From Rhodobacteraceae bacterium HLUCCA08 (GTDB lineage: Bacteria; Pseudomonadota; Alphaproteobacteria; Rhodobacterales; Rhodobacteraceae), in contig LJSF01000016.1 in the NCBI GenBank assembly GCA_001314655.1, positions 219,131 to 283,130 of the forward strand: 64,000 bases of DNA, given 5' to 3'. The notes beneath the pieces are model-generated. The model was not told where the DNA came from. It was given only the letters and a program-made list of their open reading frames with translations, and made no database searches. Numbering within the stretch: the stretch's first letter is position 1; each line of letters starts with the position of its first letter. Of this stretch, positions 1 through 19,676 are shown in pieces. Position numbers and translations under genes: made by a program.

Positions 1-70
1 GCCGGGCCGGGGGCGCGGCCCCCCCGCGCCTGACGGCGCACCCCCCGGAGTTTTGCTGCCAAGTTGAAGA
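1..70. other. GC-rich window edge, no gene seen
   Basis: This short stretch lies downstream of the first leftward gene and is cut by the window edge. It contains two small GC hairpins, GCGCC-TGAC-GGCGC at 26-39 and a GGGGGCGCGGCCCCC palindrome at 9-23, but neither is followed by a T-run on either strand. They could act as processing or Rho-linked elements. I see no coding signal I can support. Confidence 0.3.
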
Positions 71-769
71 TCATAGCCGCTGCCTATGCATCGCCTCGTA
101 ATAAAGCAGGGCGGCGTTCAACAGGTCCTGCTGCGCCGCGCCAAGGTCGGGCAATGGCCCTTCGATCCCGGCGAAACCGGTGGAGGCGTGGACCGCTTCA
201 TACCAGACCGGTGCCCAGGGGCCATCATAGGGTTTCGGGCCGGCGGGCCAGGTTGTCATCGACTCCTGGTAGTCCAACCCGATGACATCGCAAAGGGTTC
301 GCAGCATTCGCTTCGGGTCGCGCCGGATATCGGCACTGTCGAGCACCGGGCCGGGAAAACGGTCGAACAGGGCCGCATGGCGGGCATATCCGATATCGTC
401 CAGCGTGGGATCCTCGCGCTTGGCGGCGTAGCTGGCGATCACCCGGGCCGGGTGGCGGATCAGGTGGACATGGACGCAGTCGCGCGCCCAGTCCAGCGGA
501 AAGCCCGGCCGCAGGTGCAGCGCCATATGTTTCTGATACCAATGGGTTTTCCCATCCGGCACCGGACCGGAAAGCCATTCGGATACGCGCGCCGGATCCC
601 GGCTCTGGCTGGCCAGGACCGCCTCGCGCATCGGGTGGTGCAGGCCGGTTTCGGCCAGATAGGCTGCGTAGAAGGGTTCGTCGGTCGCCGCGAAATCGGC
701 ACGGTTGCCGAAGGCATACATCATCGCCGTCGACAGGTTGCGCGGGCCGCTCCAGATGGCGAGTTTCAT
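71..769 (-). CDS. Sulfotransferase-superfamily protein
   Basis: A 232-residue soluble protein. WSGPRNLST at residues 6-14 resembles the 5'-phosphosulfate-binding P-loop of PAPS-dependent sulfotransferases, and LIRHPARVIASY at 103-114 resembles their 3'-phosphate-binding strand and helix. Members of this branch often sit beside class IV aminotransferases and have no proven substrate, so transfer of sulfate is only a family-level inference. The ATG at 769 is preferred over an in-frame GTG at 793, because an AGGA-type ribosome-binding site lies about 8 bases upstream of it and the GTG version would overlap the preceding gene. It follows the aminotransferase by 20 bases, so the two are probably co-transcribed. 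Confidence 0.7.
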   Translation of the reverse strand: MKLAIWSGPRNLSTAMMYAFGNRADFAATDEPFYAAYLAETGLHHPMREAVLASQSRDPARVSEWLSGPVPDGKTHWYQKHMALHLRPGFPLDWARDCVHVHLIRHPARVIASYAAKREDPTLDDIGYARHAALFDRFPGPVLDSADIRRDPKRMLRTLCDVIGLDYQESMTTWPAGPKPYDGPWAPVWYEAVHASTGFAGIEGPLPDLGAAQQDLLNAALLYYEAMHRQRL

Positions 770-789
770 CGGTCGGTGTCCTGTCGGTA

Positions 790-1716
790 TCACGTTGGCG
801 TGACGTCGGTGCCGGGCGCGCGGTCGATCAACGCCTTGTAAAGGCCGCGGATCCGCTCGGTCATCGGCCCGATCCCACCGTCACCGATCCGCCGGCCGTC
901 GATTTCGCCGACCGGGGTCTGGGCGCCGAAAGTGCCGGTCAGGAAGGCCTCGTCGGCACCATAGGTATCGACCAGGCTGAAGTTGCGTTCGAAAACCGGG
1001 ATGCCGTTCGCACGGCACAGGTCGATCACCTTCTGGCGGGTGATGCCGTTCATGCAATAATCGCCGGTCGAGGTCCAAACCGCGCCCCGCCGCACGATGA
1101 AGAAGTTGCAGGCATTGGTCGTGTTCACGAAGCCATGCACGTCCAGCATCAACGCTTCGTCCGCGCCGGCCTTTTCGGCGGCGATGCAGGCGAGTATGCA
1201 GTTGAGCTTGGAATGCGCGTTCAGTTTCGGGTCCTGGGTCATCGGCAACCCGCGGATATGCGGCACCGTGGCCAGCCGGATCGGACGAGGCAAGGAGGGG
1301 CGCGAATGCTCCATGATGATGACCATGGTCGGCCCCGAGCGGCTGAGCCCCGGATGCTGGAACGGGCGCGCCTTGATACCACGCGTGACCATCAGGCGGG
1401 CATGCACATCGGTGACCATGCCATTCGCCGTTTGTGTCTCTGACAAGGCGGAAATCACGCCGGCGCGTTCCATCCCGATATCCAGGTCGATGGCCTTGGC
1501 GGCCTCGAACAGGCGGTCGATATGGTCCTCTAGAAAGGCCCAACGCCCGTCGTAAAGGCGCAGCCCCTCCCACACGCCGTCACCCAGCAGGAAGCCGCTG
1601 TCATAGACGCTGACACTCGCCTCGGACCGGGGCTTCAACTGGCCGTTGACCCAGATCAGGATGTCTTGGTTCCTTGCGTCCTCTTCGGCTTGGTGGGTGG
1701 TCACGTGATCGGTCAT
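790..1716 (-). CDS. Class IV (D-amino acid/branched-chain) aminotransferase
   Basis: A 308-residue PLP-dependent aminotransferase of fold type IV, the family of IlvE, D-alanine aminotransferase and aminodeoxychorismate lyase. The N-terminal part carries the typical DSGFLLGDGVWEG substrate-pocket segment (residues 39-51), the likely Schiff-base lysine is K170 in AHSKLN, and the conserved PLP-pyridine glutamate is in GADEALML (near 187). The sequence does not separate branched-chain from D-amino acid specificity. About 14 extra residues precede the usual start of the fold. It is upstream of the sulfotransferase-like gene on the same strand and divergent from msrA, with a 120-base intergenic region. 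Confidence 0.8.
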   Translation of the reverse strand: MTDHVTTHQAEEDARNQDILIWVNGQLKPRSEASVSVYDSGFLLGDGVWEGLRLYDGRWAFLEDHIDRLFEAAKAIDLDIGMERAGVISALSETQTANGMVTDVHARLMVTRGIKARPFQHPGLSRSGPTMVIIMEHSRPSLPRPIRLATVPHIRGLPMTQDPKLNAHSKLNCILACIAAEKAGADEALMLDVHGFVNTTNACNFFIVRRGAVWTSTGDYCMNGITRQKVIDLCRANGIPVFERNFSLVDTYGADEAFLTGTFGAQTPVGEIDGRRIGDGGIGPMTERIRGLYKALIDRAPGTDVTPT

Positions 1717-1836
1717 GGCGTCAGGCTAGGGCGGCGCGGAAATGTTTCCAAGCAGTAAAGACGGCGTGACATCACGCCCGGGTGAATTGCCCGAACCGCA
1801 CCACCCGCGCAGTGTGACGGGGAAAGGAGCCCTGTC

Positions 1837-2499
1837 ATGGTCCGCAACATGAACAACGTCAAAGCCTTCGTTCTTGCCCTTGCCATCGGTATCGGCCTTG
1901 CCATCCAGTGCACCGGGGTCAACGCCCGCGACATGCAGGTTCTGACCGTCGCCGGCGGGTGTTTCTGGTGCGTCGAGGCGGATTTCGAAAAGGTCCGCGG
2001 CGTGCAGGAGGTCGTGTCGGGCTATACCGGCGGCACCGTCGCCAACCCGACCTATCGCCAGGTGACCGGTGGCGGGACCGGGCATTACGAGGCGGTGCAG
2101 ATCATCTATGACGCCGACCAGGTGAGCGCGCGGCGACTCTATGACCTGTTCTTCCGATCGGTCGACCCGACCGATGCCGGCGGGCAGTTCTGCGACCGGG
2201 GCGACAGCTATCGGACGGCGATTTTCGTCTCTGATCCGGCCCAACAACAGGATGCCGAGGCCGCCAAATCCGCCGCCGAGGCCGAGCTGGGCCAGCCGAT
2301 CGTCACCCCGATCCTGAGCGCCGGGCCGTTCTACACGGCCGAGGACTATCACCAGGATTACTATCGCGGCACCGATATCATCCTGACCCGCGCCGGTCCG
2401 AAATCCCAGGCCGCGGCCTATGATTTCTATCGCGAGGCCTGCGGGCGCGACCAGCGGGTGCGCCAGCTCTGGGGCGGAGATGCGCCTTTCGTGAACTGA
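1837..2499 (+). CDS. msrA: Exported peptide methionine sulfoxide reductase A
   Basis: Reduces the S-epimer of methionine sulfoxide in proteins. The signature GCFWC is at residues 41-45 with the nucleophilic cysteine at 42, followed by the MsrA patterns GYTGG and GHYEAV, and a resolving-type cysteine sits near the C-terminus (EACGRD). Residues 1-30 form a typical Sec signal peptide, with a basic N-region, a hydrophobic core and VNA before the mature part, so this copy probably works in the periplasm. AAGGAG lies 7 bases before the chosen ATG. No msrB is nearby. Its electron donor there is unknown; a membrane-borne thioredoxin-like reductant would be needed. Confidence 0.9.
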   Translation: MVRNMNNVKAFVLALAIGIGLAIQCTGVNARDMQVLTVAGGCFWCVEADFEKVRGVQEVVSGYTGGTVANPTYRQVTGGGTGHYEAVQIIYDADQVSARRLYDLFFRSVDPTDAGGQFCDRGDSYRTAIFVSDPAQQQDAEAAKSAAEAELGQPIVTPILSAGPFYTAEDYHQDYYRGTDIILTRAGPKSQAAAYDFYREACGRDQRVRQLWGGDAPFVN

Positions 2500-2503
2500 C
2501 GGC

Positions 2504-4759
2504 TTAGCCCACCTTGCAGGCTGCCAGCACCGCCATGTTGAGGATGTCGTTCACGGTCGATACGGTCGAACAGATCTGGATCGGCCGGTCGATCCCCGAC
2601 AGGATCGGGCCGATCACCGTCGCGCCGGCCATTTCCTGCATCAGCTTGACCGAGATCGAGGCCGAATGCCGCGCCGGCACCACCAGCACGTTGGCCGGGC
2701 CGGTGAGGCGCGAAAACGGGTAATGCTCCATCGCCTTGGGGTTCAGGGCGACATCGACGGTCATTTCGCCCTCGTATTCGAAATCGACCTTGCGTGCATC
2801 CAGCACCGTGGTCGCCACATGCATCTTGGTCGCGCGTTCCGACACCGGGTAGCCGAAGGTCGAGAAGGACAGGAAGGCCACCCGCGGCTCAAGCCCCAGG
2901 TCGCGGGCCACGGCGGCACCGCGTTCGGCGATATCGGCCAGGTCGTTTTCGTCGGGCCATTCATGGACCAGCGTATCGGCGACCAGCACGATCCGCCCCT
3001 TGTGCAGAACCGCGGTGACACCGACGGCGCCGTCATGGGGGCCGGCATCGAAGACGTGGTTGATCAGTTCCAGCACATGGGCCGATTTGCGGGTCGCCCC
3101 GGTGACCATGGCATCGGCATGGCCATGCGCCAGCATCAGGGACGAAAACACATGCCGGTCGCGGGCGGCCAGGCGGTGGATGTCGTGCCGGTCATGGCCC
3201 TTGCGCTGGAGCCGATCGTAAAGGAAATCCTTGTAGGTATCGAGGTATTCGGTGTTCGCGGCGTTGACCACGCGCAACTCGCGGACCGCATCGCCCAGCC
3301 CCTCGGCCTCCAGTTTCTGCTTCACGTCCGCTTCGCGGCCGACGACCAGCGCCCGGCCATAGCCGCCGCGCTGATAGGACACGGCCGCGCGCAGCACGCG
3401 GGGATCGTCGCCTTCGGCGAAGACCACGGTGGATTGATTGGCCCGGGCCCGGGCATTGATCCCGCGCAGGATCGAGGCGGTCGGGTCCATCCGGGTCTTG
3501 AGCGTTTCCTCGTAACCGTCCAGGTCGATGATCGGCCGCCGGGCGACACCGGTATCCATCCCGGCCCGGGCCACGGCCGGCGGCACCCGGTGGATCAGCC
3601 GCGGGTCGAAGGGCGTCGGGATGATGTAGTCGCGGCCGAAGGTCAGCTTGCGACCATAGGCCATCGCGACCTCGTCGGGCACGTCTTCCCGGGCCAGATC
3701 GGCCAGGGCCTGGGCGCAGGCGATCTTCATCTCGTCATTGATCGCGCGGGCGTGGATATCGAGCGCGCCGCGGAACAGGTAGGGAAAGCCCAGCACGTTG
3801 TTGACCTGGTTGGGATAGTCGCTGCGCCCGGTGGCGACGATGGCATCGACGCGGACCGCGTGCGCCTCTTCCGGGGTGATTTCAGGGTCCGGATTGGCCA
3901 TCGCGAAGATGACCGGGTTATCGGCCATCGCCTGGACCATCTCGGGCGTCACCGCGCCCTTCACGGAGACACCCAGAAAGACGTCGGCGCCCTCCATCGC
4001 CTCATCCAGGCTGCGCAGGTCGGTCTTGACCGCATGGGCCGATTTCCACTGGTTCATCCCCTCGGTCCGACCCTGGTAGATGACGCCCTTGGTGTCGCAG
4101 ACAATGCAGTTGTCGTGCCGTGCGCCCATGGATTTGAGCAGTTCGATACAGGCGATACCGGCCGCGCCGGCGCCGTTCAGGACGATCTTCACATCCTCGA
4201 TCTTCTTGCCCGACAGATGCAGCGCGTTCAGCAACCCGGCGGCACAGATCACGGCGGTGCCGTGCTGGTCGTCGTGAAAGACGGGGATGTCCATCTCTTC
4301 CTTCAGGCGCTGTTCGATGATGAAGCATTCGGGCGCCTTGATGTCTTCGAGGTTGATCCCGCCGAAGGTCGGGCCGATCAGCCGCACCGCCTTGCAGAAT
4401 TCATCCGGGTCTTCGGTATCGACCTCGATATCGACGGAATTCACATCGGCGAAGCGTTTGAACAGCACCGCCTTGCCTTCCATCACCGGCTTGGAGCCGA
4501 GCGCGCCCAGGTTGCCCAGCCCGAGCACGGCGGTGCCGTTCGAGATCACCGCCACCAGATTGCCCTTGTTCGTGTAATCATAGGCGGTGCCCGGGTTCTG
4601 GGCGATTTCCTCGCAGGGCACGGCGACGCCGGGGGAATAGGCCAGGCTCAGGTCGCGCTGGGTGGTCATCGGGACCGTGGCCTGGACCTCCCATTTGCCG
4701 GGGGTGGGTTCGATATGGAATTGCAGCGCGTCCTCGCGCGTGATGCGTTGCCTGGTCAT
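2504..4759 (-). CDS. maeB: NADP-dependent malic enzyme with phosphotransacetylase-like domain
   Basis: A 751-residue multidomain malic enzyme that converts malate to pyruvate and CO2 and reduces NADP. The first about 420 residues are the malic enzyme, with malate-binding SLAYSPGVA, the DDQHGTA loop and a nucleotide-binding NGAGAAGIA segment. Residues from about 430 to the end match the phosphate acetyl/butyryl transferase fold; in MaeB this part is regulatory and acetyl-CoA responsive rather than catalytic. Length and domain order are usual for the family. The stop codon is 4 bases from the end of msrA, so the two genes are convergent with no room for a terminator between them. Confidence 0.95.
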   Translation of the reverse strand: MTRQRITREDALQFHIEPTPGKWEVQATVPMTTQRDLSLAYSPGVAVPCEEIAQNPGTAYDYTNKGNLVAVISNGTAVLGLGNLGALGSKPVMEGKAVLFKRFADVNSVDIEVDTEDPDEFCKAVRLIGPTFGGINLEDIKAPECFIIEQRLKEEMDIPVFHDDQHGTAVICAAGLLNALHLSGKKIEDVKIVLNGAGAAGIACIELLKSMGARHDNCIVCDTKGVIYQGRTEGMNQWKSAHAVKTDLRSLDEAMEGADVFLGVSVKGAVTPEMVQAMADNPVIFAMANPDPEITPEEAHAVRVDAIVATGRSDYPNQVNNVLGFPYLFRGALDIHARAINDEMKIACAQALADLAREDVPDEVAMAYGRKLTFGRDYIIPTPFDPRLIHRVPPAVARAGMDTGVARRPIIDLDGYEETLKTRMDPTASILRGINARARANQSTVVFAEGDDPRVLRAAVSYQRGGYGRALVVGREADVKQKLEAEGLGDAVRELRVVNAANTEYLDTYKDFLYDRLQRKGHDRHDIHRLAARDRHVFSSLMLAHGHADAMVTGATRKSAHVLELINHVFDAGPHDGAVGVTAVLHKGRIVLVADTLVHEWPDENDLADIAERGAAVARDLGLEPRVAFLSFSTFGYPVSERATKMHVATTVLDARKVDFEYEGEMTVDVALNPKAMEHYPFSRLTGPANVLVVPARHSASISVKLMQEMAGATVIGPILSGIDRPIQICSTVSTVNDILNMAVLAACKVG

Positions 4760-4885
4760 CTCGTCCTCCCGGGTGCCGGAGACCCTTTAAGACCATGCGC
4801 GGGGCCGGGGCAACGGGGCAGTTTCGACTTTCACGGGCCCGGCGTGCTTTGTAGGGTCGCCGGACAGTCGCAACCGGGGGGTCGG

Positions 4886-7513
4886 ATGACGCAGGTCACG
4901 CCGATGATGGCGCAGTATCTGGAGATCAAGGAAGCGCATCGCGACGCGCTGCTGTTCTACCGGATGGGCGATTTCTACGAGATGTTCTTCGACGACGCGG
5001 TCAAGGCGGCCGGGGCGCTGGATATCGCCCTGACCAAGCGCGGCAAGCATCTGGACGCGGATATCCCGATGTGCGGCGTGCCGGTTCATTCCGCCGAAGG
5101 CTATCTGCTGACCCTGATCCGCAAGGGGTTCCGCGTCGCCGTCTGCGAACAGATGGAAGACCCGGCCGAGGCGAAGAAACGCGGGGGATCGAAAGCGGTG
5201 GTCCGGCGCGAGGTGGTTCGGCTGGTCACGCCCGGCACCCTGACCGAAGAGTCGCTGCTGGATGCACGTCAGCACAATTTCCTGGCCGCCTTTGCCGAAG
5301 TGCGCGAAGCGGGCGCCCTGGCCTGGGTCGATATCTCGACCGGGGCGCTGTCGGTCGTGGCCTGCCCGGGCGCGAGCCTTGGCCCGGAACTGGCGCGACT
5401 GGCCCCGCGCGAAGTCTTGCTATCCGAAGCGTCAGAGCCGATTTACGCCGATGCAGTGACTGAATCCGGCGCGTCACTGACCGGGCTGGGCAATGCGGCC
5501 TTCGACAGCGCAGGTGCGGAAAAGCGGCTTTGTGCGGTCTTCGGCGTGGGGTCGCTGGATGCCTTCGGCAGCTTCGGCCGAGCCGAGGTTTCGGCGCTGG
5601 GCGCGCTGGTCGAATACCTGGAAATCACCCAGAAGGGAAAGCTGCCGTTGCTTCGCCCGCCGGTGCTGGAACGGCGCGAGGCGGCGATGCAGATCGACGC
5701 GGCGACGCGGCGGTCACTGGAGCTGACCCATGGCATGGGCGGCGGTCGGGCAGGGTCGCTGTTGTCGGTGATCGACCGGACGCTGACCGCCGGCGGCGCG
5801 CGACTGTTGGAACGGCGGCTGTCCAGCCCGTCGCGGGATATCGGCGCGATCACCGCACGGCAGGACGCCATCGCCTGGATGCTGGACAATGGGGCACTGG
5901 CCGATCGGCTGCGCGAGGCGTTGCGTGGCGTGCATGACCTGGACCGGGCGCTGTCGCGTCTTGGCCTCGATCGCGGCGGGCCGCGCGACATGGCGGCGAT
6001 CCGCAACTCCATCGGCCAGGGCGCGGCGATGGCCGCGATGCTGCCCGGGGACTTGCCGCCGCTTCTGGCCGAGGCGGCGCGCGACCTGGTGGGCCATGAC
6101 GATCTGCTGGACCTGCTGGAGGCGGCGCTGGTCGCCGAACCGCCACTGCTGGCGCGCGACGGCGGGTTCATCGCCACAGGCCACGACGCGGAACTGGACG
6201 AAGCGCGCACCCTGCGGGACGAGGGCCGGTCGGTCATCGCCGGGATGCAGCGCGATTACGCAGAACGCGCCGGGGTGCAAAGCCTGAAGATCAAGCACAA
6301 TAACGTGCTGGGGTATTTCATCGAAACCACCGCGACCCATGCCGACAAGATGCTGTCGCCGCCGCTGAACGAAACGTTCATCCACCGCCAGACGACCGCG
6401 AACCAGGTGCGCTTCACAACTGTCGAGCTGAGCGCCCTGGAGACCCGGATCCTGAATGCCGGGGGGCGGGCACTTGAGATCGAAAAGCGGCTCTATTCCG
6501 GCCTGAAAGATGTGATTCTGGCACAGTCTGCAGGTTTGTCGACCCTGTCCCGGGCGCTGGCCGAACTCGATCTGGCCGCCGCATTGGCGCAACTGGCCCG
6601 ACAGGAGGATTGGGTGCGACCGGTCGTCACCGAAGACCGTGAGTTCACCATTTCGGGTGGGCGGCATCCGGTGGTCGAGGCCGCCCTGCGCAAGACGGGC
6701 GATCCGTTCGTGGCCAATGATTGCGACCTGGGGGAAACGCCGGTCTGGCTGCTGACCGGGCCGAACATGGCCGGCAAGTCGACATTCCTGCGCCAGAACG
6801 CGCTGATCGCGATCCTGGCCCAGATGGGCGCTTTTGTGCCCGCCGACGCGGCGATCATCGGCATCGTCAGCCAGGTGTTCAGCCGGGTCGGGGCCTCGGA
6901 CGATCTGGCGCGGGGCCGGTCGACCTTCATGGTCGAGATGGTCGAGACCGCGGCGATCCTGAACCAGGCCGATGATCGCGCGCTGGTGATCCTGGACGAG
7001 ATCGGTCGCGGCACCGCGACCTATGACGGGTTGTCGATCGCCTGGGCGACGCTGGAACACCTGCACGAGGTCAACCGCTGCCGCGCGATCTTTGCGACCC
7101 ATTACCATGAAATGACCGCCCTCGCCGGCAAGCTGGCGGGCGTCGACAACGCCACCGTGGCGGTCAAGGAATGGGAGGGTGAGGTGATCTTCCTGCACGA
7201 GGTGCGGCGCGGCACGGCCGATCGCAGTTATGGCGTGCAGGTGGCGCGGCTGGCCGGGCTTCCGCAGAGGGTGGTCGAGCGGGCGCGCGTCGTTCTCGAT
7301 GCGCTGGAAAAGGGCGAGCGGGAAGGCGAGGGAAGCCAGAAGGCGCTGATCGACGATCTGCCGCTTTTTGCCGCAAGCCCTGCACCCGCGCCGCCGTCAC
7401 CGAGATGCGCCAGCGCGGTCGAGGACCGCCTGGCCGGGGTTCTGCCGGATCACCTGACACCGCGTGAGGCGCTGGACCTGCTGTACGAGTTGAAAGCGCT
7501 GCAGGGCGAATAG
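4886..7513 (+). CDS. mutS: DNA mismatch repair protein MutS
   Basis: An 875-residue MutS. It recognises base mismatches and small loops and uses ATP to recruit MutL. The mismatch-stacking Phe-x-Glu is F30-Y31-E32 in RMGDFYEMFF. The C-terminal ATPase has Walker A GPNMAGKST at 625-633, Walker B VILDEIGRGT and the ATHYHE switch. Reading in this frame is open far upstream through the antisense of maeB, so automatic callers may extend the gene. The ATG chosen gives the normal family N-terminus and follows a GGGGGTCGG purine-rich stretch. The gene is divergent from maeB. Confidence 0.97.
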   Translation: MTQVTPMMAQYLEIKEAHRDALLFYRMGDFYEMFFDDAVKAAGALDIALTKRGKHLDADIPMCGVPVHSAEGYLLTLIRKGFRVAVCEQMEDPAEAKKRGGSKAVVRREVVRLVTPGTLTEESLLDARQHNFLAAFAEVREAGALAWVDISTGALSVVACPGASLGPELARLAPREVLLSEASEPIYADAVTESGASLTGLGNAAFDSAGAEKRLCAVFGVGSLDAFGSFGRAEVSALGALVEYLEITQKGKLPLLRPPVLERREAAMQIDAATRRSLELTHGMGGGRAGSLLSVIDRTLTAGGARLLERRLSSPSRDIGAITARQDAIAWMLDNGALADRLREALRGVHDLDRALSRLGLDRGGPRDMAAIRNSIGQGAAMAAMLPGDLPPLLAEAARDLVGHDDLLDLLEAALVAEPPLLARDGGFIATGHDAELDEARTLRDEGRSVIAGMQRDYAERAGVQSLKIKHNNVLGYFIETTATHADKMLSPPLNETFIHRQTTANQVRFTTVELSALETRILNAGGRALEIEKRLYSGLKDVILAQSAGLSTLSRALAELDLAAALAQLARQEDWVRPVVTEDREFTISGGRHPVVEAALRKTGDPFVANDCDLGETPVWLLTGPNMAGKSTFLRQNALIAILAQMGAFVPADAAIIGIVSQVFSRVGASDDLARGRSTFMVEMVETAAILNQADDRALVILDEIGRGTATYDGLSIAWATLEHLHEVNRCRAIFATHYHEMTALAGKLAGVDNATVAVKEWEGEVIFLHEVRRGTADRSYGVQVARLAGLPQRVVERARVVLDALEKGEREGEGSQKALIDDLPLFAASPAPAPPSPRCASAVEDRLAGVLPDHLTPREALDLLYELKALQGE

Positions 7514-7520
7514 GCGCAGG

Positions 7521-7539
7521 CCCCGGATCAGGTCCGGGG
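7521..7539. terminator. GC hairpin between mutS and grpE
   Basis: CCCCGGA-TCAGG-TCCGGGG forms a perfect 7-bp stem in the 39-base gap between the convergent ends of mutS and grpE. There is no T-run on either side, so it is either a weak bidirectional terminator or an mRNA-stabilising hairpin. Confidence 0.35.
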
Positions 7540-7552
7540 AATGCCGGGCACC

Positions 7553-8122
7553 TCAGGACGCCGGGGTCGAACTGACGCCGACCTGGGCAGGGCGCAGCAG
7601 CCGGTCATGCAGCAGGAAGCCGGCGGCAGAAACCTGCAGGATATCGCCGGCCTTGGTGCCGGGCACCGGCGCTTCGAACATCGCTTCGTGCAATTGCGGA
7701 TCGAACCTTTCGCCGATTTCGGGAAGGATGGGTTCGATACCGTGGCGTTTGAAGACATTGAGCAATTCGCGCATCGTCAGCTCGACCCCTTCGAGCAGGG
7801 CCTTGTCGCCATCCTTGCCGTCCTCTTTCGCGAGCTTCAGCGCCCGGTCGAGATTGTCGTAGACCGGCAACAGGTCGCGGCCCAGGCGGGTGGCGCCGTA
7901 GGCCTCGGCCTCGCGCTTGTCGCGCTGGGCGCGTTTGCGGGTATTCTCGGCATCGGCGAGCGCCCGCATATAGGCGTCCTTCAGATCGGCGTTCTCGGCG
8001 CGAAGCTGGTCGATCGGGTCGACCTCGTCCTCGGGCCCGTCGACAGGGTTGCCGTCGGTATCCAGCCCCTCCTCGTTCAGGATGTCTTCGATCATTTCCT
8101 GTTCGGTCTTCCGCTCTGCCAT
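7553..8122 (-). CDS. grpE: Nucleotide exchange factor GrpE
   Basis: A 189-residue GrpE, the co-chaperone that releases ADP from DnaK. An acidic N-terminal segment is followed by a long helix (QLRAENADLKDAYMRALADAENTRKRAQRD) and the beta-domain motif around HEAMFEAPV. It starts 10 bases after the end of hrcA, with AAGGA upstream of its ATG, so hrcA-grpE form one transcript. The dnaK and dnaJ genes are not in the window. Confidence 0.95.
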   Translation of the reverse strand: MAERKTEQEMIEDILNEEGLDTDGNPVDGPEDEVDPIDQLRAENADLKDAYMRALADAENTRKRAQRDKREAEAYGATRLGRDLLPVYDNLDRALKLAKEDGKDGDKALLEGVELTMRELLNVFKRHGIEPILPEIGERFDPQLHEAMFEAPVPGTKAGDILQVSAAGFLLHDRLLRPAQVGVSSTPAS

Positions 8123-8132
8123 GTCTTGTCCT

Positions 8133-9194
8133 TCATCCGCGGTCCGAGATCAGCCGGCCGACCAGCTGCGCGGTATAATCAACGATCGGAACGATGCGCC
8201 CGTAATTCAGCCGGGTCGGGCCGATGACCCCGACCGCACCGACGATCTTTCGGTCTGCGTTCATATAGGGAGAGACGACCAAAGAGGAACCCGAAAGTGA
8301 AAAAAGCTTGTTTTCGGATCCGATGAAGATCCGCACGCCGTCGCCGGCTTCGGCAAGTTCGAGAAACTCGGCGATATCCCGCTTGCGTTCCAGATCGTCG
8401 AACAGGACCTTGATCCGGTCCAGGTCGAGTTGGTCACCGTCTTCGAGCAGGTTTCCACGCCCGCGCACGATCAGTCGTTCGGTGCGTTCGCCCTTGTCGG
8501 TCCAGATCGCATCGCCGGATTCGACAAGCTCGGCGGCAAGCGAATCGATTTCCCGGCGACGGGTGGCGATTTCGCGGGCGATCACGCTGCCAAGCTCCGA
8601 CAGGGTGCGCCCCTCGGCCACCGCGTTGATGAAATTCGCGGCCTCTCGCATCGACGATGGCGTCTGGCCGAGTGGCGGCGTAAAGACGCGGTTCTCGACA
8701 TGGCCATCGGCATAGACCAGCACCACCAGCGCCCGGTCCAGCGCGAGCGAGACGAATTCGATATGGCGGATCGGGGCCTCGTGCTTGGGCGCCAAAACCA
8801 GGCTGGCACCGCGTGTGACACCGGACAGGGCCGACCCGATACGATCGAACAGGGTCGCATCTTCGTCGGTTGTGCCGCCCAGGGTCTGATCGAGCTTTTC
8901 GCGGTCGGCATCGTCAAGCTCTCCGACTTCGAGCAATCCGTCGACGAAAAGCCGCAACCCCAGTTCCGTCGGGACGCGACCGGCGCTGACATGGGGGCTG
9001 CCCAGGAGGCCGAGATATTCGAGATCCTGCATCACGTTGCGCACCGTCGCCGGGCTGACCTGTTCGGTCATCGTCCGGCTGAGCGTGCGCGAGCCGACCG
9101 GCGCGCCGGAATCGAGATATCCTTCGACCACGCGGCGAAAAACCTCGCGCGAGCGGGCATTCATGGAATCGAGCGATGGGGTCGGGTCTGTCAT
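8133..9194 (-). CDS. hrcA: Heat-inducible transcription repressor HrcA
   Basis: A 353-residue HrcA with an N-terminal winged helix ([27 protein letters not shown]) followed by the inserted and dimerisation domains. The family represses groESL and dnaK-type operons by binding the CIRCE inverted repeat. I find no CIRCE-like TTAGCACTC/GAGTGCTAA in its own upstream region, so HrcA here is probably not self-repressed, and its targets lie elsewhere. It is the first gene of an hrcA-grpE operon and divergent from rph. Confidence 0.95.
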
Positions 9195-9221
9195 GGTCCT
9201 GGATCCCTTCGGGCAAACCGC

Positions 9222-9249
9222 ATTAAATAACCACGGACGGTCACGTCAA
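9222..9249 (-). promoter_or_regulatory. Sigma70-type promoter of hrcA-grpE
   Basis: On the minus strand TTGACG (9249-9244) and TTTAAT (9227-9222) are separated by 16 bases and each match the -35 and -10 consensus at 5 of 6 positions. The predicted start is about 20 bases before the hrcA ATG, which is compatible with a short leader. Confidence 0.5.
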
Positions 9250-9321
9250 CGGGCCGCAATGCGGGTTGGAAAAGACGGGCAGCCCGCGTATCCCGGCGCG
9301 GAACAGCAAGGGATGACCGAT

Positions 9322-10032
9322 ATGCGACCCTCAGGACGAAAGCTAGACGAACTGCGCGAGATTTCCATCGAAACCGGGGTGACGAAACATGCGGAAGGGT
9401 CGTGCCTGATTCGATGTGGCGATACCCATGTTCTGTGCACCGCCAGCGTCGATGAACGCGTGCCGCCGTTCCTGAAGAACAGCGGGTTGGGCTGGGTCAC
9501 GGCGGAATACGGGATGCTGCCGCGGTCGACCAGCAGCCGGATGCGGCGCGAGGCCACGGCGGGCAAGCAGGGTGGCCGCACCGTTGAGATCCAGAGGCTG
9601 ATCGGGCGCAGCCTGCGGGCCGGGGTCGACCGGGTCGCGCTGGGCGAGCGGCAGATCGTGGTGGATTGCGACGTGATCCAGGCCGATGGTGGCACGCGCT
9701 GCGCCGCGATCACCGGTGGCTGGGTCGCGTTGCGGATCGCGATCAACAAGCTGATGCAGGCGGGACAGATCGCTTCCGACCCTCTGGGCGATCCGGTCGC
9801 CGCGGTCAGTTGCGGGATCTTTGCCGGGCAGGCGGTGCTGGACCTGGATTATCCCGAGGACAGCGAGGCCGGCGTCGACGGCAATTTCGTCATGACCGGC
9901 GACCGGTTGATCGAGGTTCAGATGTCGGCGGAGGGATCCACCTTTTCGCGGGATCAGATGGACCAGCTGATGGCGCTGGCCGAGAAGGGCGTCACGGCGC
10001 TGAGCGCGGCCCAGCGGGAGGCCGCGGGGTGA
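9322..10032 (+). CDS. rph: Ribonuclease PH
   Basis: A 236-residue phosphorolytic 3'-5' exoribonuclease that trims tRNA 3' ends. The protein begins with the family N-terminus MRPSGR. It also has [37 protein letters not shown] and the [11 protein letters not shown] active-site segment. The ATG at 9322 is preferred over one at 9313 because AAGGGA is 8 bases upstream and homologues begin MRP. Its stop overlaps the GTG start of rdgB by four bases, so the two are translationally coupled. Confidence 0.95.
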
Positions 10033-10637
10033 CCCGGAAATTCACCGGCGACCGGTTGCTGGTTGCCACCCATAATGCCGGCAAGCTGGAGGAAATGGTC
10101 GCCTTGTTCGCGCCCCATGGCGTCCAGGTGGTCGGTGCGGCCGAGATGGGCCTGGCCGAGCCTGCGGAGACCGAGACGACCTTCGTCGGCAACGCCCGGA
10201 TCAAGGCCCATGCCGCCGTTGGCGCGACCGGGCTGCCGGCCCTGGCCGATGACAGCGGGATTTCCGTCGATGCGCTGGACGGCGCGCCGGGTGTTCACAC
10301 CGCGGATTGGGCCGAAACGCCGACCGGGCGCGATTTCGTGATGGCGATGACGCGGACCTGGGAGGCGCTGGAACGGGCCAGGGCGCCCTATCCCCGCCGG
10401 GCCCGGTTCAACTGCACGCTTGTTCTGGCCTGGCCCGACGGACATGACGAAGTCTTCACCGGCGTGATGCCCGGGCAAGTGGTCTGGCCGATGCGCGGGG
10501 TGCAGGGACATGGTTATGATCCGGTTTTTCAGCCGGACGGCTATGCCATCACCTTCGGAGAGATGGGTGCGGCGGAAAAGAACCGGATCAGCCATCGTGC
10601 GCGGGCATTCGCCGCGCTGATCGAGGCCTGCTTTTGA
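10029..10637 (+). CDS. rdgB: XTP/dITP diphosphatase (RdgB/HAM1)
   Basis: A 202-residue house-cleaning pyrophosphatase that hydrolyses non-canonical purine nucleotides such as dITP and XTP. The family motifs are visible: [11 protein letters not shown] near the N-terminus, [29 protein letters not shown] in the middle, and [10 protein letters not shown] at the C-terminus. The start is the GTG embedded in the rph stop (GTGA), and its own stop overlaps the TTG start of hemW, giving a tightly coupled rph-rdgB-hemW unit. Confidence 0.93.
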
Positions 10638-11806
10638 CCGAGGCGAAATTCGGATTGTACCTGCATTGGCCGTTCTGCGCGGCCAAATGCCCGTATTGCG
10701 ATTTCAATTCCCATGTGTCGGCCTCGGTCGACGAAGAGCGCTGGCAACGCGCCTACCTGAGCGAGATCGACCGGGTCGGGGCCGAGACCTCGGGGCGCGT
10801 GCTGCGGTCGGTCTATTTCGGCGGCGGAACACCCAGCCTGATGAGCCCGGCATTGGTTGACGCGGTGCTGCGTCGGGTCCGGGCGACATGGCCGATGGCG
10901 AACGATATCGAGATCACACTGGAGGCGAACCCGTCCTCTGTCGAAGCCGCACGGTTCGCCGGGTATCGCGAGGCCGGCGTGAACCGGGTGTCGTTGGGGG
11001 TCCAGGCGCTGAATGACGACGATCTGCGCCGTCTTGGACGGTTGCACGATGTCGACCAGGCCTTGCGGGCGGTCTCTGTCGCCATGCAGGTCTTTGACCG
11101 GGTGAGTTTCGACCTGATCTATGCCCGCCAGCACCAGTCCCTGTCGGATTGGCGTGAAGAATTGTCACGTGCGCTGGAGTTGCGCCCGCGCCATCTGTCG
11201 CTCTACCAACTCACGATCGAGGATGGAACGGCCTTCGGAGCCCGATATTCAGCCGGCAAGCTGGCCGGGTTGCCAAACGAGGATCTGGGCGCCGACATGT
11301 TCGAATTGACAGGCGCGATGTGCCGGGATGCCGGCTTGCCCGCCTATGAAATTTCCAATCATGCGCACCCCGGAGATGAGGGCCGCCACAATATGTTGTG
11401 TTGGCAAGGCCACGACTATGCAGGCATAGGTCCTGGCGCGCATGGTCGGTTGACGTTGGACGGGCGCCGTCATGCGACCGAGACTGAATTGGCACCGTCA
11501 TCCTGGCTGGAGCGCGTTGAAACACTTGGATCCGGGGAAAACCGGCGCGAGGTGCTGTCGGTTCTTGATGTGTTCGAAGAGCGGGTGATGATGGGATTGC
11601 GCGTGACCGAAGGGGTTCCGGATCACCTTCTTCTGGACCAAATAAATTACAATGAAATCAATTATTTAGTCGAAATCGGGCTGATCGAGCACGATGCGGG
11701 CCGAGTGCGGGCGAGCGATCGCGGTCGACCTGTCCTGAATGCGATCTTGCGGAACTTGCTGGCCGATCAGCCGCCCGAAAGCACGCGAAGCAGATCGTCG
11801 AGCTGA
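10634..11806 (+). CDS. hemW: HemW-type radical SAM protein (heme chaperone)
   Basis: A 390-residue HemN-like radical SAM protein. The iron-sulfur CxxxCxxC is C15, C19 and C22 in PFCAAKCPYCDF, followed by YFGGGTPSL and the GVQALNDDDLRRLGR segment. It lacks the N-terminal extension of true coproporphyrinogen dehydrogenase HemN, so the HemW call (heme delivery) is preferred. The TTG start overlaps the rdgB stop, with GAGG 7 bases upstream. The 3' end runs 40 bases into the convergent parB. Codons near 11640-11668 are strikingly AT-rich (they encode INYNEINYL, including a TTA codon), unlike the rest of the gene. Confidence 0.88.
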   Translation: MTEAKFGLYLHWPFCAAKCPYCDFNSHVSASVDEERWQRAYLSEIDRVGAETSGRVLRSVYFGGGTPSLMSPALVDAVLRRVRATWPMANDIEITLEANPSSVEAARFAGYREAGVNRVSLGVQALNDDDLRRLGRLHDVDQALRAVSVAMQVFDRVSFDLIYARQHQSLSDWREELSRALELRPRHLSLYQLTIEDGTAFGARYSAGKLAGLPNEDLGADMFELTGAMCRDAGLPAYEISNHAHPGDEGRHNMLCWQGHDYAGIGPGAHGRLTLDGRRHATETELAPSSWLERVETLGSGENRREVLSVLDVFEERVMMGLRVTEGVPDHLLLDQINYNEINYLVEIGLIEHDAGRVRASDRGRPVLNAILRNLLADQPPESTRSRSSS

Positions 11807-12657
11807 GCCAAGGATTTGTATCGCAAGGTCAGTGACCCGGACTCCGCGCCTTGTTTGTGATCGATGTTGACGGCCATGTTGAGCGTGGCGGCGAGCTCTC
11901 GTTCGATCTGAACCGTGTCCGGGTCCTTTGGCGTCGCCGCGTTTTTGCTGGGTTTGGGCTTGCTCGGATCCGATTTGGCAAGTTTTTCGGCGGCGCGGAC
12001 TGACAAACCGCGGCGGATGATGTCACGCGCCAGATCGCCGGCGGCGGGATGGCCGACGAGCGTACGCGCATGTCCGGCCGATAAACGACCATCGACCAGG
12101 TAGGACTGGACATCCTCGGGTAATGACAGGAGCCGCACCTGGTTGGCGATATGGCTGCGGCTTTTTCCGAGCGCCCTGGACAGCTCATCCTGGGTATGGC
12201 CGAATCTGTCCATGAGCTGACGATATCCGGCAGCCTCCTCGATCGGGTTCAGATCGGCGCGCTGGACGTTTTCGATGATGGCGACTTCGAGAACCTCCTG
12301 GTCGTTGAAGTCACGCACAAGGATCGGCACCTCGTGCAACTGGGCGATCTGGGCCGCGCGCCAGCGACGTTCGCCGGCGACGATTTCGTAGTTCCCTGGT
12401 TCGCGGGAAGACGGGCGCACGATCAGCGGCTGGATGATTCCATGCTCGCGAACCGACGCGGCAAGATCATCAAGAGCTTCGGTATCGAAACTGCGCCTTG
12501 GCTGCTCGGGGTTGGGGTGAACCTTTTCGATCGCGATCCGAACATCAGGCGCCGGGGCGGCGACAGAGCCATCGGTGTCTTCCGCGGGGCGCACATCTGA
12601 CATAAGGGCCGAAAGACCGCGGCCGAGACCCCGGGTTCTAGGGGCTTTTTCGCTCAT
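11767..12657 (-). CDS. parB: Chromosome-partitioning protein ParB
   Basis: A 296-residue ParB/Spo0J. It binds parS, spreads along DNA as a CTP-dependent clamp and feeds SMC loading. Visible features are the N-terminal RGLGRGLSALM box that contacts ParA, GERRWRAAQIA (the CTP-binding box), ENVQRADLNPIEEA and a helix-turn-helix around TQDELSRALGKSRSHIANQVRLL. The ATG at 12657 is chosen over an upstream frame extension because AAGGAG lies 9 bases before it. parA is 13 bases upstream in the same operon. Confidence 0.96.
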   Translation of the reverse strand: MSEKAPRTRGLGRGLSALMSDVRPAEDTDGSVAAPAPDVRIAIEKVHPNPEQPRRSFDTEALDDLAASVREHGIIQPLIVRPSSREPGNYEIVAGERRWRAAQIAQLHEVPILVRDFNDQEVLEVAIIENVQRADLNPIEEAAGYRQLMDRFGHTQDELSRALGKSRSHIANQVRLLSLPEDVQSYLVDGRLSAGHARTLVGHPAAGDLARDIIRRGLSVRAAEKLAKSDPSKPKPSKNAATPKDPDTVQIERELAATLNMAVNIDHKQGAESGSLTLRYKSLAQLDDLLRVLSGG

Positions 12658-12670
12658 CAGGTGTTGCTCC

Positions 12671-13468
12671 TTATGGATTGCGCGCCAGGAATTCCCGGGC
12701 GAGTTCACGATACGCGAGGCTGCCCTTGGACATTGGGTCGTATTGCAAGACGGATTGGGCAAAGGACGGGGCCTCGCTGACCCGGACATTGCGGGGAATC
12801 ACCGTCTTGAAGACCAGTTCCTGAAGGTTGTCGCGGGCGTCAGCCTCGACCTGCTGCGACAGATTGTTGCGGATATCGTACATTGTAAGCACGACCCCTT
12901 CGATCCTCAGGTCTGGGTTTGCGGTTTGCCGGACTTCTCGAACCGTGAGCATGAGCTGGGAGAGCCCTTCGAGCGCATAGAACTCGCTTTGCAAGGGCAC
13001 CAGCACCCGATGGGCCGCGACCATAGCGTTGATTGTCAGAATACTGAGAGACGGGGGGCAGTCGATCAGGATGAAATCCAGTCGCAACTCATCGATAGAC
13101 GGTTGTCGGAGTGCGTCATGCAGCAGGAAGCTTCGCTTTTCGTTCGAAACGAGGTCGATATCAGCGGCGCTGAGGTCGGTGGTCGCTGGAACGACAAAAA
13201 GATTCGGGACGGTGGTGGCGGTTGCAGCTTCGACTGGTGTCGCTTCACCGGAAAGGAGCTCGTAGGACGTGACATCGCGATCCCGGGCATCGAGTCCCAG
13301 ACCGGTTGACGCATTTCCCTGGGGATCGAGATCAACGATCAATACGCGCCGGCCGGTTTCGGCGAGGGCGGCGCCAAGGTTTACGGTCGTCGTCGTCTTG
13401 CCGACCCCGCCTTTCTGATTGGCGACGGCGATGATCCTGGGATCCGTTGATCGCGATAGGTCAGGCAC
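12671..13468 (-). CDS. parA: Chromosome-partitioning ATPase ParA
   Basis: A 265-residue ParA/Soj ATPase. It has the deviant Walker A KGGVGKTT at residues 19-26, then VDLDPQGNASTGLG, and LDFILIDCPPSLS as Walker B. ATP-bound ParA coats the nucleoid and pulls ParB-parS complexes. The gene overlaps the end of rsmG by 8 bases and precedes parB, the standard chromosomal arrangement next to rsmG-mnmG. Confidence 0.97.
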   Translation of the reverse strand: MPDLSRSTDPRIIAVANQKGGVGKTTTTVNLGAALAETGRRVLIVDLDPQGNASTGLGLDARDRDVTSYELLSGEATPVEAATATTVPNLFVVPATTDLSAADIDLVSNEKRSFLLHDALRQPSIDELRLDFILIDCPPSLSILTINAMVAAHRVLVPLQSEFYALEGLSQLMLTVREVRQTANPDLRIEGVVLTMYDIRNNLSQQVEADARDNLQELVFKTVIPRNVRVSEAPSFAQSVLQYDPMSKGSLAYRELAREFLARNP

Positions 13469-14063
13469 GATGGATATCCTCGATGCGCAGGATGACGGAG
13501 TCCGGAGAGGTCTTACTCGGCAATTTCGTCAGAGCAAAGGACCATTCGGTACGGGCCGTAGCAATCTCGTCGGCTACCGTCCGGCCCTTGGGAAAAACCG
13601 CGGTGCCATCGGGCGACAGGTGCTTTTCGGCATAGCGCAACAAGGTCGTCAGCGGGGCAAGCGCCCTTGCTGATATGACATCCGCGCGCAACGGAGCCTG
13701 GTCCGCGACGCGGCCGACCGATACCTTGGCAGGCAACGCCAACTCTCGGATGACTGTTCGCAAAAACGCGGCTTTGCGCTGATCGGATTCGACGAGCGTT
13801 ATGTGCCGTCCGGATCCAACGGAATGGATTGCGATGACAAGGCCGGGAAGGCCACCGCCGCTCCCCAAATCCACCCAATGTTCCCATTCCATCGGCGCAC
13901 AATCAAGCAATTGAGCACTGTCTACGATGTGACGATGTTCGAGGTCGTCGAGCGTGGCGCGCGAAACCAGGTTGATCTTTCGTGTCCACTTTCTGAGCAG
14001 GTCGGCATAGGCCGCGAGCTTGGCTTCTGTTTCACGTGAAACATTGGCAGCGCCTGCCGGCAT
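13461..14063 (-). CDS. rsmG: 16S rRNA (guanine-N7) methyltransferase RsmG
   Basis: A 200-residue SAM-dependent methyltransferase that modifies G527 of 16S rRNA (formerly GidB). The motif WVDLGSGGGLPGLVIA binds SAM, and LVESDQRKAAFL follows. The ATG at 14063 overlaps the mnmG stop; a GTG one codon upstream (14066) is also possible. The first codons contain a perfect parS palindrome, read here as VSRET. Confidence 0.95.
   Translation of the reverse strand: MPAGAANVSRETEAKLAAYADLLRKWTRKINLVSRATLDDLEHRHIVDSAQLLDCAPMEWEHWVDLGSGGGLPGLVIAIHSVGSGRHITLVESDQRKAAFLRTVIRELALPAKVSVGRVADQAPLRADVISARALAPLTTLLRYAEKHLSPDGTAVFPKGRTVADEIATARTEWSFALTKLPSKTSPDSVILRIEDIHRA
14028..14043. promoter_or_regulatory. 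parS centromere site 1 (inside rsmG)
   Basis: TGTTTCACGTGAAACA, a perfect 16-bp palindrome identical to the canonical chromosomal parS sequence. It lies in the rsmG coding region about 20 bases after its start and 560 bases from parA, so ParB should load here. Confidence 0.93.
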
Positions 14064-15946
14064 CACGATACCGCAGCACGATCAGTCGATCGTCCTTGCA
14101 GCCGAGCAAGAAGCAGCATCAGGGCCGCTGGCGTTACGCCTTCAATTCTGCTGGCATGAGCGATGGTTTCGGGTCGCGTTTGGCTAAGCTTTTCGGCGAC
14201 TTCCCGGGACAATCCGGTGATGGCGTGAAAATCGAGGTTGGCCGGGATTTCAATCGCCGAATCACGTTGCAATGCTGCGACATCGCGCGCCTGTCGCGCC
14301 ACGTAGTGGGCATAGAGCGCGTCTCGCTTCACCTGGTCCTGGATTTCGGGCGCAATCGATGCAACACCCACGCCCAGACGCTCCAGAAGGGCGAAGTCCG
14401 CATTCGCGATCGACAACAGCTCCAACCCCGTGCGTCTTGGACCGTCAACGTTGATCGAGAACCCGTGTTCCGCCACTTCACGGGATGAAAAGTTGCAGTT
14501 GTCCAGCGTCTCCCGCGCAGCGTTCAGGGCGTTGGCCTTTTCCTCGAACGATCGCCAGCGCGATTCACCAACGCAGCCGATTTGGCGGCCCCAGGCTGTC
14601 AGACGCTGGTCGGCATTGTCGGCACGCAAAGACAAGCGGAACTCGGCCCGCGACGTGAACATCCGATATGGTTCCGTGACGCCGCGCGTGACAAGATCGT
14701 CGATCATGACACCGATATAGGACGTCGTCCTGTCGAAGTGGATGGGCGCCTCGCCAAACGCTTCGGAAACCGCATTCAACCCGGCAACCAAGCCCTGAGC
14801 CGCCGCTTCTTCGTAACCCGTTGTGCCGTTAATTTGCCCAGCGAGGTACAACCCGCCAATTTCCCGAACCCGAAGTGTTCGGCGCAGCGCTCGCGGGTCC
14901 ACATAATCATATTCGATCGCGTATCCAGGCTGAAGAATTTTGGCGTTTTCAAGCCCAGTTATGGAATGAACGTAGTCCTCCTGGACGTCTTCGGGCAAAG
15001 ATGTCGAAATTCCATTTGGATAGATCGTCGGGTCGTTGACGCCTTCCGGCTCAAGAAACACCTGATGCGAGGTCTTGTCGGCAAACCTGACAACCTTGTC
15101 TTCGATCGATGGACAATAGCGCGGCCCAACGCCGTCGATATGACCGCCATACATCGCCGAACGCGAGAGATTTCGGCGGATTATTTCGTGTGTACGCTCG
15201 TTCGTATGTGTGATCCCACAGGCGATCTGTTCCGCCGATGGTGCGTGGCTCAGAAAGGAAAACATGACCGGGTCGGCATCGCCCGGCTGCATTTCTAGAC
15301 CGGACCAGTCGATCGTTCGACCGTCCAGCCTGGGGGGCGTCCCGGTCTTTAAGCGACCAAGCGGCAATCCGAAGGTGTCGATCCGCTCCGCCAAACGCAC
15401 CGACGGACGATCTCCGATACGACCGCCTGGACGTGAGGATTCACCGATATGGATCACACCACGAAGAAACGTCCCCGTGGTAAGGATCACGGCCTGTGCA
15501 CGAATCTCGGACCCATCGGCAAGTGTGACGCCGTGAACCACTCTGTCGCGACAGATCAGGTCTGCGACCTCGCCCTCGAAGATCGTGATATTCGGGTGTG
15601 ACTGCATTTCCAGAAACATCGACCGGCGATAGATCGAACGATCCGCTTGCGCTCGTGGACCCTGAACGGCCGGCCCCTTGCGCCGGTTCAAAAGCCGAAA
15701 CTGGATACCCGCCGCATCGGCGACACGGCCCATGACGCCATCAAGGGCATCGATTTCTCGCACCAGATGGCCTTTGCCCAGGCCACCAATGGCCGGGTTG
15801 CATGACATGACACCGATCCCGGAAACACTGAGCGTCACCAGGATGACATCTGCGCCGATGCGTGCCGCGGCATGGGCGGCTTCACATCCGGCATGCCCGC
15901 CGCCGACAACCACGATTCTCGGCCTGTCATGTTTCACGTGAAACAC
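14063..15946 (-). CDS. mnmG: tRNA uridine 5-carboxymethylaminomethyl modification enzyme MnmG
   Basis: A roughly 627-residue FAD enzyme that, with MnmE, installs cmnm5 at the wobble uridine of certain tRNAs. [17 protein letters not shown] is the FAD-binding Rossmann motif, and [21 protein letters not shown] and GTFLRG are family signatures. The start is uncertain: GTG at 15946 (VFHVKH), GTG at 15937 (VKH) and TTG at 15964 are all in frame. The first leaves a 2-base gap after mnmE and is used here. The parS site overlapping this N-terminus forces the FHVK residues. Confidence 0.94.
15930..15945. promoter_or_regulatory. parS centromere site 2 (mnmG start)
   Basis: A second exact copy of TGTTTCACGTGAAACA, overlapping the first codons of mnmG. 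Together with the copy at 14028 it gives two parS sites 1.9 kb apart, both within 5 kb of the candidate origin. Confidence 0.93.
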
Positions 15947-17259: not shown

Positions 17260-18534
17260 TCAGGTGTTCATGGAGTCGAAGAAATCCGAATTCGTCTTGG
17301 TCTGCTTCAGTTTCGAGATCAGGAATTCGATCGCATCGGTGGTGCCCATCGGGTTCAGGATCCGGCGCAGCACATAGGTCTTTTGCAAATCGGTCTTGTC
17401 GACCAGCAAATCCTCTTTCCGGGTTCCGGATTTGAGAATGTCCATCGCCGGAAACACGCGCTTGTCGGCCACTTTTCGATCCAGCACGATTTCCGAGTTG
17501 CCCGTGCCCTTGAATTCTTCGAAGATCACTTCGTCCATGCGGCTGCCGGTATCGATGAGCGCCGTCGCGATGATGGTCAGCGACCCGCCTTCCTCGATGT
17601 TCCGCGCCGCGCCGAAGAACCGCTTCGGCCGTTGCAACGCATTGGCATCCACACCGCCCGTCAGAACCTTGCCCGAACTCGGCACCACGGTGTTGAACGC
17701 TCGGCCCAGCCGGGTGATCGAGTCCAGCAGGATCACCACGTCACGCTTGTGTTCGACCAGTCGTTTCGCCTTCTCGATCACCATCTCCGCAACGGCGACG
17801 TGGCGCGTGGCCGGTTCATCGAAGGTCGAAGAGACGACTTCGCCCTTCACCGACCGCTGCATGTCCGTCACCTCTTCGGGACGTTCGTCGATCAGCAGCA
17901 CGATGACATAGCATTCCGGGTGATTGTGTTCGATGGAATGGGCGATGTTCTGCAGCAACACTGTCTTGCCGGTCCGCGGCGGCGCCACGATCAGCGACCG
18001 CTGCCCCTTCCCGATCGGCGCCACAAGATCGATGATCCGCGACGACCGGTCCTTCAGCGTCGGGTCTTCCTCGATTTCCAGCTTCAACCGCTGATCCGGA
18101 AACAAGGGCGTCAGATTCTCGAACGCGACCTTGTGCCGGGCCTTTTCCGGTTCTTCGAAATTGATCCGCTCGACCTTTACCAGGGCAAAGTAGCGTTCGT
18201 TGTCCGACGGTTCCTTGATCACCCCTTCGACCGTGTCACCGGTCCGCAGCGAATATTGCCGGATCATCTCGGGGCTGACATAGATATCGTCCGGGCCGGG
18301 CAGGTAATTCGCCTCGGGCGAGCGCAGGAACCCGAACCCGTCCTGTAGAACCTCCAGGACACCGTCACCGCCGATGATCCATTCCTCTTCCGCGCGCTCC
18401 TTCAGGATCGCGAACATCATGTCGCCCTTGCGCATGGTCGAGGCATTCTCGATCTCGAGTTCCTCTGCCATGGCAAGCAGGTCCTTCGGGCTGTGTGCCT
18501 TCAGGTCGGCCAGATTCAAACGGTCCTCGGACAT
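17260..18534 (-). CDS. rho: Transcription termination factor Rho
   Basis: A 424-residue RNA-dependent hexameric helicase. It has the N-terminal Rho helix-loop-helix, the cold-shock-like RNA-binding region ([19 protein letters not shown]), Walker A in [11 protein letters not shown], and [15 protein letters not shown]. Length is normal. It is the first gene leftward of the candidate origin, preceded by a leader of roughly 85-95 bases from the predicted promoter; rho leaders commonly mediate autoregulation. Confidence 0.97.
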
Positions 18535-18628
18535 GGGTCACCTCTGAACCGATCCAACCGCCTTGTCAGCGCGGACCGGTCTGTCATCGTTTCTTTGGAA
18601 AGTTCCACCCTAGGACAAGGGCGCCCCT

Positions 18629-18657
18629 GACCTAGTCCTTCCGACCGAACCTGTCAA
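18629..18657 (-). promoter_or_regulatory. Probable rho promoter
   Basis: On the minus strand a perfect TTGACA (18657-18652) is followed after 17 bases by TAGGTC (18634-18629). The -10 lacks the final T, a feature reported for many Rhodobacter promoters that depend on CarD. The same TTGAC-N17-TAGG arrangement precedes trxA. Confidence 0.42.
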
Positions 18658-18689
18658 CGTGCTGCGTCGGTCCGGCCGGTGAGGTCAAG

Positions 18690-19076
18690 CCGGTCGATTA
18701 CCACTTCTTTAACAAAAGATTATAGAAAGGTTATTGCTATGATGAGGACGTGGAAAACTCGTGCTGGCCTCACTATCCGCAGGTTTATACCCAGCCCTGG
18801 TCCATTACCGAACTGTTACACTCGCAAGGCAAATATAGAAAAATATATATATAACAAAGTCTTGGCGGAAAAACCCTTCACCCGGCCCTATTGACTTCTT
18901 CAAGTCTGTATCCGGATACTCAAATCATCCACAACAACGAGTCGTCCCGATCCACAGTGGAAAACCGCAACGGTCCTTGCGGATGGAACGAGAAACTTCG
19001 TAAGTCGGAACTGAGCCAGCGGCTTGTCTACATTCCGAACCCAGTGAGATCCCCGACCTATCCCGAACCTGTCCAC
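18690..19076. other. Candidate chromosomal replication origin (oriC)
   Basis: This is the AT-rich part of the 542-base gene-free interval between the diverging rho and maf genes. It holds an AT tract at 18835-18857 with an ATATATATAT run, and near-matches to the DnaA box TTATNCACA: TTATACCCA at 18785 and TCATCCACA at 18925 (one mismatch each), plus CGATCCACA at 18948 and CTGTCCACA at 19069 (two mismatches each). There is also a perfect 12-bp palindrome GTATCCGGATAC at 18908, and a CtrA-like TTAA-N7-TTAT at 18709-18723. Flanking synteny matches alphaproteobacterial origin regions (parAB-rsmG-mnmG-mnmE-rho on one side, maf-aroE-coaE-dnaQ on the other). No convincing gene lies in it. Confidence 0.62.
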
Positions 19077-19676
19077 ATGCCAGATCCCATGATCCTCGCC
19101 TCTGCCTCCACCAGTCGGGCCCGTCTGTTGCGCGATGCGGCCGTCGCATTCGAGGTCGTGGCGGCGCGAATCGACGAGGAGTCGTTGAAAGCCGCGCTTC
19201 TTGCCGAAGCCGCGAGCCCCCGGGATATCGCCGATGCCTTGGCCGAGATGAAGGCCCGGCGCGTCTCGGCCAGACGCCCCGATGCGGTTGTGATCGGGTC
19301 CGACCAGGTCCTGGACGATGGGACCACGATCCTGTCCAAGCCGGCGACTCCCGAAGAGGCGCGCGCACAGATCCGCGCTCTGTCGGGCCGGACCCACCAG
19401 TTGATCTCGGCGGTCGTGCTCTACCAGGGTGGCGCCCCGATCTGGCGCCATGCCGGGACGGCGCGGATGACCATGCGCGACATCTCCGATCGCTATCTGG
19501 ACGATTATGTCGACCGGAACTGGGGCCGGATCCGCCATTCCGTCGGCGGCTACCTGATCGAGGAAGAAGGCGTGCGCCTTTTCTCCCGGATCGAAGGGGA
19601 TCTGTTCACGGTTCAGGGTTTGCCGCTGCTCGAACTCTTGTCTTACCTCTCGCTTCGCGGAATTGTGCCGGCATGA
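19077..19676 (+). CDS. maf: Maf-like nucleoside triphosphate pyrophosphatase
   Basis: A 199-residue Maf/YceF-type pyrophosphatase that hydrolyses modified or wrong nucleoside triphosphates. It opens with the family S-x-S-x-x-R motif (ASASTSRARLL). It continues with VVIGSDQVL, LSGRTHQLISAV and SVGGYLIEEEG. The ATG at 19077 gives this N-terminus; an upstream in-frame extension would run into the candidate origin and is rejected. It is the first gene rightward of the origin, and its stop overlaps aroE by four bases. Confidence 0.9.
   Translation: MPDPMILASASTSRARLLRDAAVAFEVVAARIDEESLKAALLAEAASPRDIADALAEMKARRVSARRPDAVVIGSDQVLDDGTTILSKPATPEEARAQIRALSGRTHQLISAVVLYQGGAPIWRHAGTARMTMRDISDRYLDDYVDRNWGRIRHSVGGYLIEEEGVRLFSRIEGDLFTVQGLPLLELLSYLSLRGIVPA

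Follow-up and report, generated by a model that had tools for sequence, protein, structure and literature searches.

The stretch of DNA analyzed here (the window, 64,000 nucleotides) belongs to a 378,492-bp contig (C33) of the draft genome of Rhodobacteraceae bacterium HLUCCA08, and within it rho and maf point away from each other on either side of an interval that is intergenic and directly adjoins maf (Table 1). NCBIfam names place parB, a ParA-type ATPase, rsmG, mnmG, mnmE and rho on the left, all running leftward, and maf, aroE, coaE and dnaQ on the right, all running rightward, which is the divergent order given in a preliminary description of this DNA; hemW and hrcA lie further left, beyond the parB side, and dnaA is also found on C33, 100 kb to the right of the interval. 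The maf ATG was placed at 19077 instead of 19083, as the equivalent codon is the start in relatives. With a GC content of 51%, compared with 64.7% across the window, the interval ranks as the most AT-rich 548-bp stretch of the contig, bearing out the earlier remark on an AT-rich gap in a GC-rich genome. It had also been called the longest gene-free region of the window, and indeed no RNA genes were found within the window, but a scan with fixed ORF cut-offs gives longer ORF-free runs elsewhere, where it passes over short genes; with so crude a test the claim is plausible.

Table 1. Features of the rho-maf locus, in positions of the window.
Feature	Coordinates	Strand	Remarks
parB	11767..12789	-	NCBIfam
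parA (ParA-type ATPase)	12671..13468	-	NCBIfam; no equivalog cut-off reached
parS TGTTTCACGTGAAACA	14028..14043		Exact 16-bp match; 4.5 kb from interval
parS TGTTTCACGTGAAACA	15930..15945		Exact 16-bp match; 2.6 kb from interval
rho	17260..18534	-	NCBIfam; start at 18534, leftward
Candidate oriC interval	18535..19076		Between rho and maf; 542 bp
AT-rich block 1, candidate unwinding element	18700..18747		Aligns with conserved family AT-rich block ending in GGATGATGAT word
DnaA box TTTTCCACG	18749..18757	-	2 mismatches
DnaA box CTATCCGCA	18773..18781	+	2 mismatches
DnaA box TTATACCCA	18785..18793	+	2 mismatches
AT-rich block 2, second candidate unwinding element	18832..18860		Contains ATATATATAT tract
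12-bp palindrome GTATCCGGATAC	18908..18919		Perfect
DnaA box TCATCCACA	18925..18933	+	1 mismatch
DnaA box CGATCCACA	18948..18956	+	2 mismatches
DnaA box TTTTCCACT	18956..18964	-	2 mismatches
DnaA box TTGTCTACA	19024..19032	+	2 mismatches
DnaA box CTGTCCACA	19069..19077	+	Final A is first base of maf ATG; weakened copy of family TTATCCAC-ATG element
maf (Maf-like protein)	19077..19676	+	Start set by comparison with relatives

Counting matches to the reference word TTATCCACA with at most two mismatches, we found 8 DnaA boxes, including the one that overlaps the maf start codon, compared with a mean of 1.33 in dinucleotide shuffles (0/200 shuffles reached 8). These comprise one 1-mismatch and seven 2-mismatch boxes, where two of each had been counted before. 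By box number the interval is the best 548-bp stretch of C33, with 8 against 4 for the runners-up. It contains zero exact boxes and a single 1-mismatch box, among the fewest in the family, which counts against its being an origin. The two AT-rich blocks would, judging from their composition, offer an unwinding region within the interval. The ATATATATAT run noted earlier begins at 18843, and the palindrome GTATCCGGATAC is likewise as first described, with no visible conservation in the Rhodobacteraceae family alignment. There is a single GANTC site, at 18939. Two perfect parS sites were confirmed where sites 3-5 kb away had been reported, so that both parAB and parS lie close to the interval, and these are the sole sites in C33 at up to three mismatches. 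The proximity of parAB is used as an anchor for oriC in PMC6699656 and PMC8116508, as far as the consulted parts of these papers go.

The arrangement recurs across the family. The order maf-(hemJ)-rho-mnmE-mnmG-rsmG-parA-parB is repeated in the named Rhodobacterales loci, and the maf-rho interval is the best box cluster in 300 kb of the relative G154 and in 339 kb of the relative G006. In all 21 intervals compared with their own shuffles (the window, 17 named relatives and 3 congeners; L034, on a contig without maf, and L038 and L039, with unusual gaps, were left out), 2-mismatch boxes were more numerous than in the shuffles (0.015 or better). Across 52 Rhodobacteraceae regions, similar positions are occupied by boxes and AT-rich blocks; G154, which duplicates L126, was excluded from the AT and offset profile of this set and from its alignment. 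Counted from the reference codon of maf, mean AT content in these regions has two upstream peaks, at approximately -396 to -336 and -246 to -216, and the window peaks at roughly the same places. The alignment reads as a series, in which an AT-rich block with the GGATGATGAT word is followed by boxes in both orientations and then by a box abutting maf, and the window retains this series in degenerate form. Between the gap and rho an ORF of ~150 codons is present in 13 of the 22 relatives in which both maf and rho were measured; two of these ORFs were tested and both are UPF0093, which we take to be hemJ. The only match to PF03653 in the genome of the window lies on contig C36.

The preliminary description had likened the locus to the origin domain of alphaproteobacteria except for the lack of hemE. 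The synteny is supported: maf-aroE-coaE-dnaQ on one side and rho-mnmE-mnmG-rsmG-parAB on the other are common to the window and the hemE-type alphaproteobacteria. The absence of hemE is real, but it is no exception, being normal in Rhodobacterales, where hemE is missing from 20/20 named loci (L025-L044; L034 begins too near rho to show maf). Outside Rhodobacterales, 37 of 58 loci have the Caulobacter-type arrangement, with maf and hemE facing apart within 2.5 kb. We presume PF03618 to correspond to the COG1806 family, and it has no match in the genome of the window; hemE is carried on contig C39. The motif for CtrA is TTAA-N7-TTAA, and counted over the family set it is found in just 4 of the 52 regions. 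The Cori of Caulobacter crescentus lies between hemE and COG1806 (PMC1914354, in the text available), and the interval resembles it in having DnaA boxes in the gap and the same gene neighborhood, whereas it lacks a hemE or COG1806 flank. The Rhodobacterales origin, in contrast, is between maf and hemJ or rho. Conservation of oriC next to maf in Rhodobacteraceae is described in the excerpted text of PMC4793288 (Ketogulonicigenium vulgare Hbe602 and DoriC entries), and PMC6699656, also seen in part, assigned oriC with Ori-Finder in 101 Rhodobacteraceae with parAB proximity among its criteria. Like those origins (K. vulgare Hbe602, DoriC; PMC4793288) the interval is intergenic and directly adjoins maf; unlike them its boxes are weaker, and the hemJ that often stands between oriC and rho in relatives is missing. 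The locus is thus a further case of the known maf-adjacent oriC of Rhodobacteraceae, whose position is, on the portion of PMC4793288 consulted, already in print.

Were replication to start elsewhere, for example beside hemE or near the skew minimum ~39 kb to the left, the interval would be only a double promoter region for rho and maf. The scan for clusters of 2-mismatch boxes covered C33 and seven short stretches of the draft genome, and in the former a second stretch, at 202,362, is suggestive in having 4 boxes, compared with 8 in the interval. An origin next to hemE was rejected, as no 548-bp stretch in the surrounding 20 kb of C39 has more than 2 boxes. Three exact boxes were found elsewhere in the genome among the matches listed (C14, C31 and C38), and pairs of strong boxes, sought among the 100 of 144 matches listed, on C9, C15 and C5; stretches of 7.3-10 kb around these pairs and exact boxes gave no more than 5 boxes per 548 bp. 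One stretch of C9 (~42411-42958, L252) has five boxes with up to two mismatches, two of them 1-mismatch boxes 66 bp apart, and might be a promoter regulated by DnaA or belong to a second replicon. In the whole genome (G000), TTATCCACA occurs 144 times with at most one mismatch and the reversed word 295 times, a difference from a single control word that hints at avoidance of strong boxes outside special sites.

Cumulative GC skew, which had been proposed as a check, gave a divided answer. On C33 it falls steadily to a minimum at 198,688 and then rises weakly, placing the candidate (~237,700-238,200 of the contig) inside the skew trough but 39 kb to the right of its lowest point; this offset is either evidence against oriC here or local noise, and it goes part of the way toward the extremum at another locus that had been named as grounds for refutation. 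Separately, positions 1-14000 of the window, left of the interval, have a positive skew where most of the left arm has the opposite sign, a pattern such as a local inversion would leave. In four relatives with long contigs the sampled split falls at or next to the locus. We took 20 evenly spaced 20-kb samples each for G006, G102 and G143 and ten for G154, split them at every sampling gap and sought the strongest contrast, which fell at the gap holding maf-rho in G006, G102 and G154, and in G143 at the adjoining gap, with the maf-rho gap second. An origin at maf agrees with 16/20, 17/20 and 10/10 of the samples in G006, G102 and G154 and with 14/20 in G143, a poor split that speaks against the oriC reading, as do three samples right of the locus in G006 with slightly negative skew. 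At finer scale, G006 (339 kb) has a local skew minimum 2 kb from maf, and in G154 (300 kb) the skew turns at maf, yet a lower minimum lies 91 kb to the right. With the skew of four relatives dividing at or beside maf-rho, we regard an origin elsewhere, despite the minimum on the contig itself, as very improbable.

The family also often has a box at a fixed place on maf, the gene of a nucleotide pyrophosphatase named for septum formation. In 60 of 91 distinct regions (93 minus the duplicates G154 and L228) the last DnaA box, allowing up to two mismatches, has the A of the maf ATG as its final base (TTATCCAC-ATG); 22 of the 60 are exact, 27 have one mismatch and 11 have two. By comparison, a box ending on the A is seen at only 21 of the 1787 other ATGs that this DNA contains and at 2 of the 402 C33 ORFs that start with ATG and reach 250 codons. 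At offset -14, exact or 1-mismatch boxes are present in 32 of the 52 regions, compared with 5 for the next offset. The sample of regions is uneven: 30 were the best Maf matches, to which the following 20 and then the final 20 of the places listed were added, with the box in 14/20 of the former set and 9/20 of the latter. Kinship inflates these counts, and other offsets in the same regions are equally affected. In the genome of the window the element (19069-19079) is weakened. Among hemE-type alphaproteobacteria, 37 of 58 loci satisfied the gap rule, and in 28 of these the DNA to the right of oriC yielded an ORF of 150 codons or more (9 gave none); none of the 28 has an in-frame start-codon box, by a simple longest-ORF rule that may miss true starts. 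We met no description of the maf start-codon box in the literature searched, which included parts of PMC4793288, PMC6699656, PMC8116508, PMC6315104 and PMC1914354.

That the box so often ends on the maf start codon might suggest that the boxes serve in DnaA control of rho and/or maf and that replication starts nearby, outside the interval. The number of boxes, the AT-rich blocks and the skew suit an origin, however, and regulation can coexist with origin function, so that we give this explanation even less credence than an origin elsewhere. A tentative and rather doubtful extension is that the oriC of Rhodobacteraceae is joined at its end to the maf start codon, such that DnaA loading could directly gate maf, linking initiation with nucleotide clean-up or with division.

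Because synteny, box density, AT content, parS, family conservation and the sampled skew in four relatives agree, we consider the interval to be, with a probability of roughly 95% on this sequence evidence, the chromosomal oriC of the bacterium. As such, DnaA would bind the ordered series of boxes and open one or other of the two AT-rich blocks, the replicative helicase would be loaded and replication forks would depart both ways, while the new chromosome copies would be segregated by ParB on the two parS sites, 2.6 and 4.5 kb from the interval. This reading would locate the origin in a genome that is still unfinished and explain why hemE is absent from the locus, and across the family the start-codon box offers a modest connection, open to testing, from the initiator protein to the neighboring gene.
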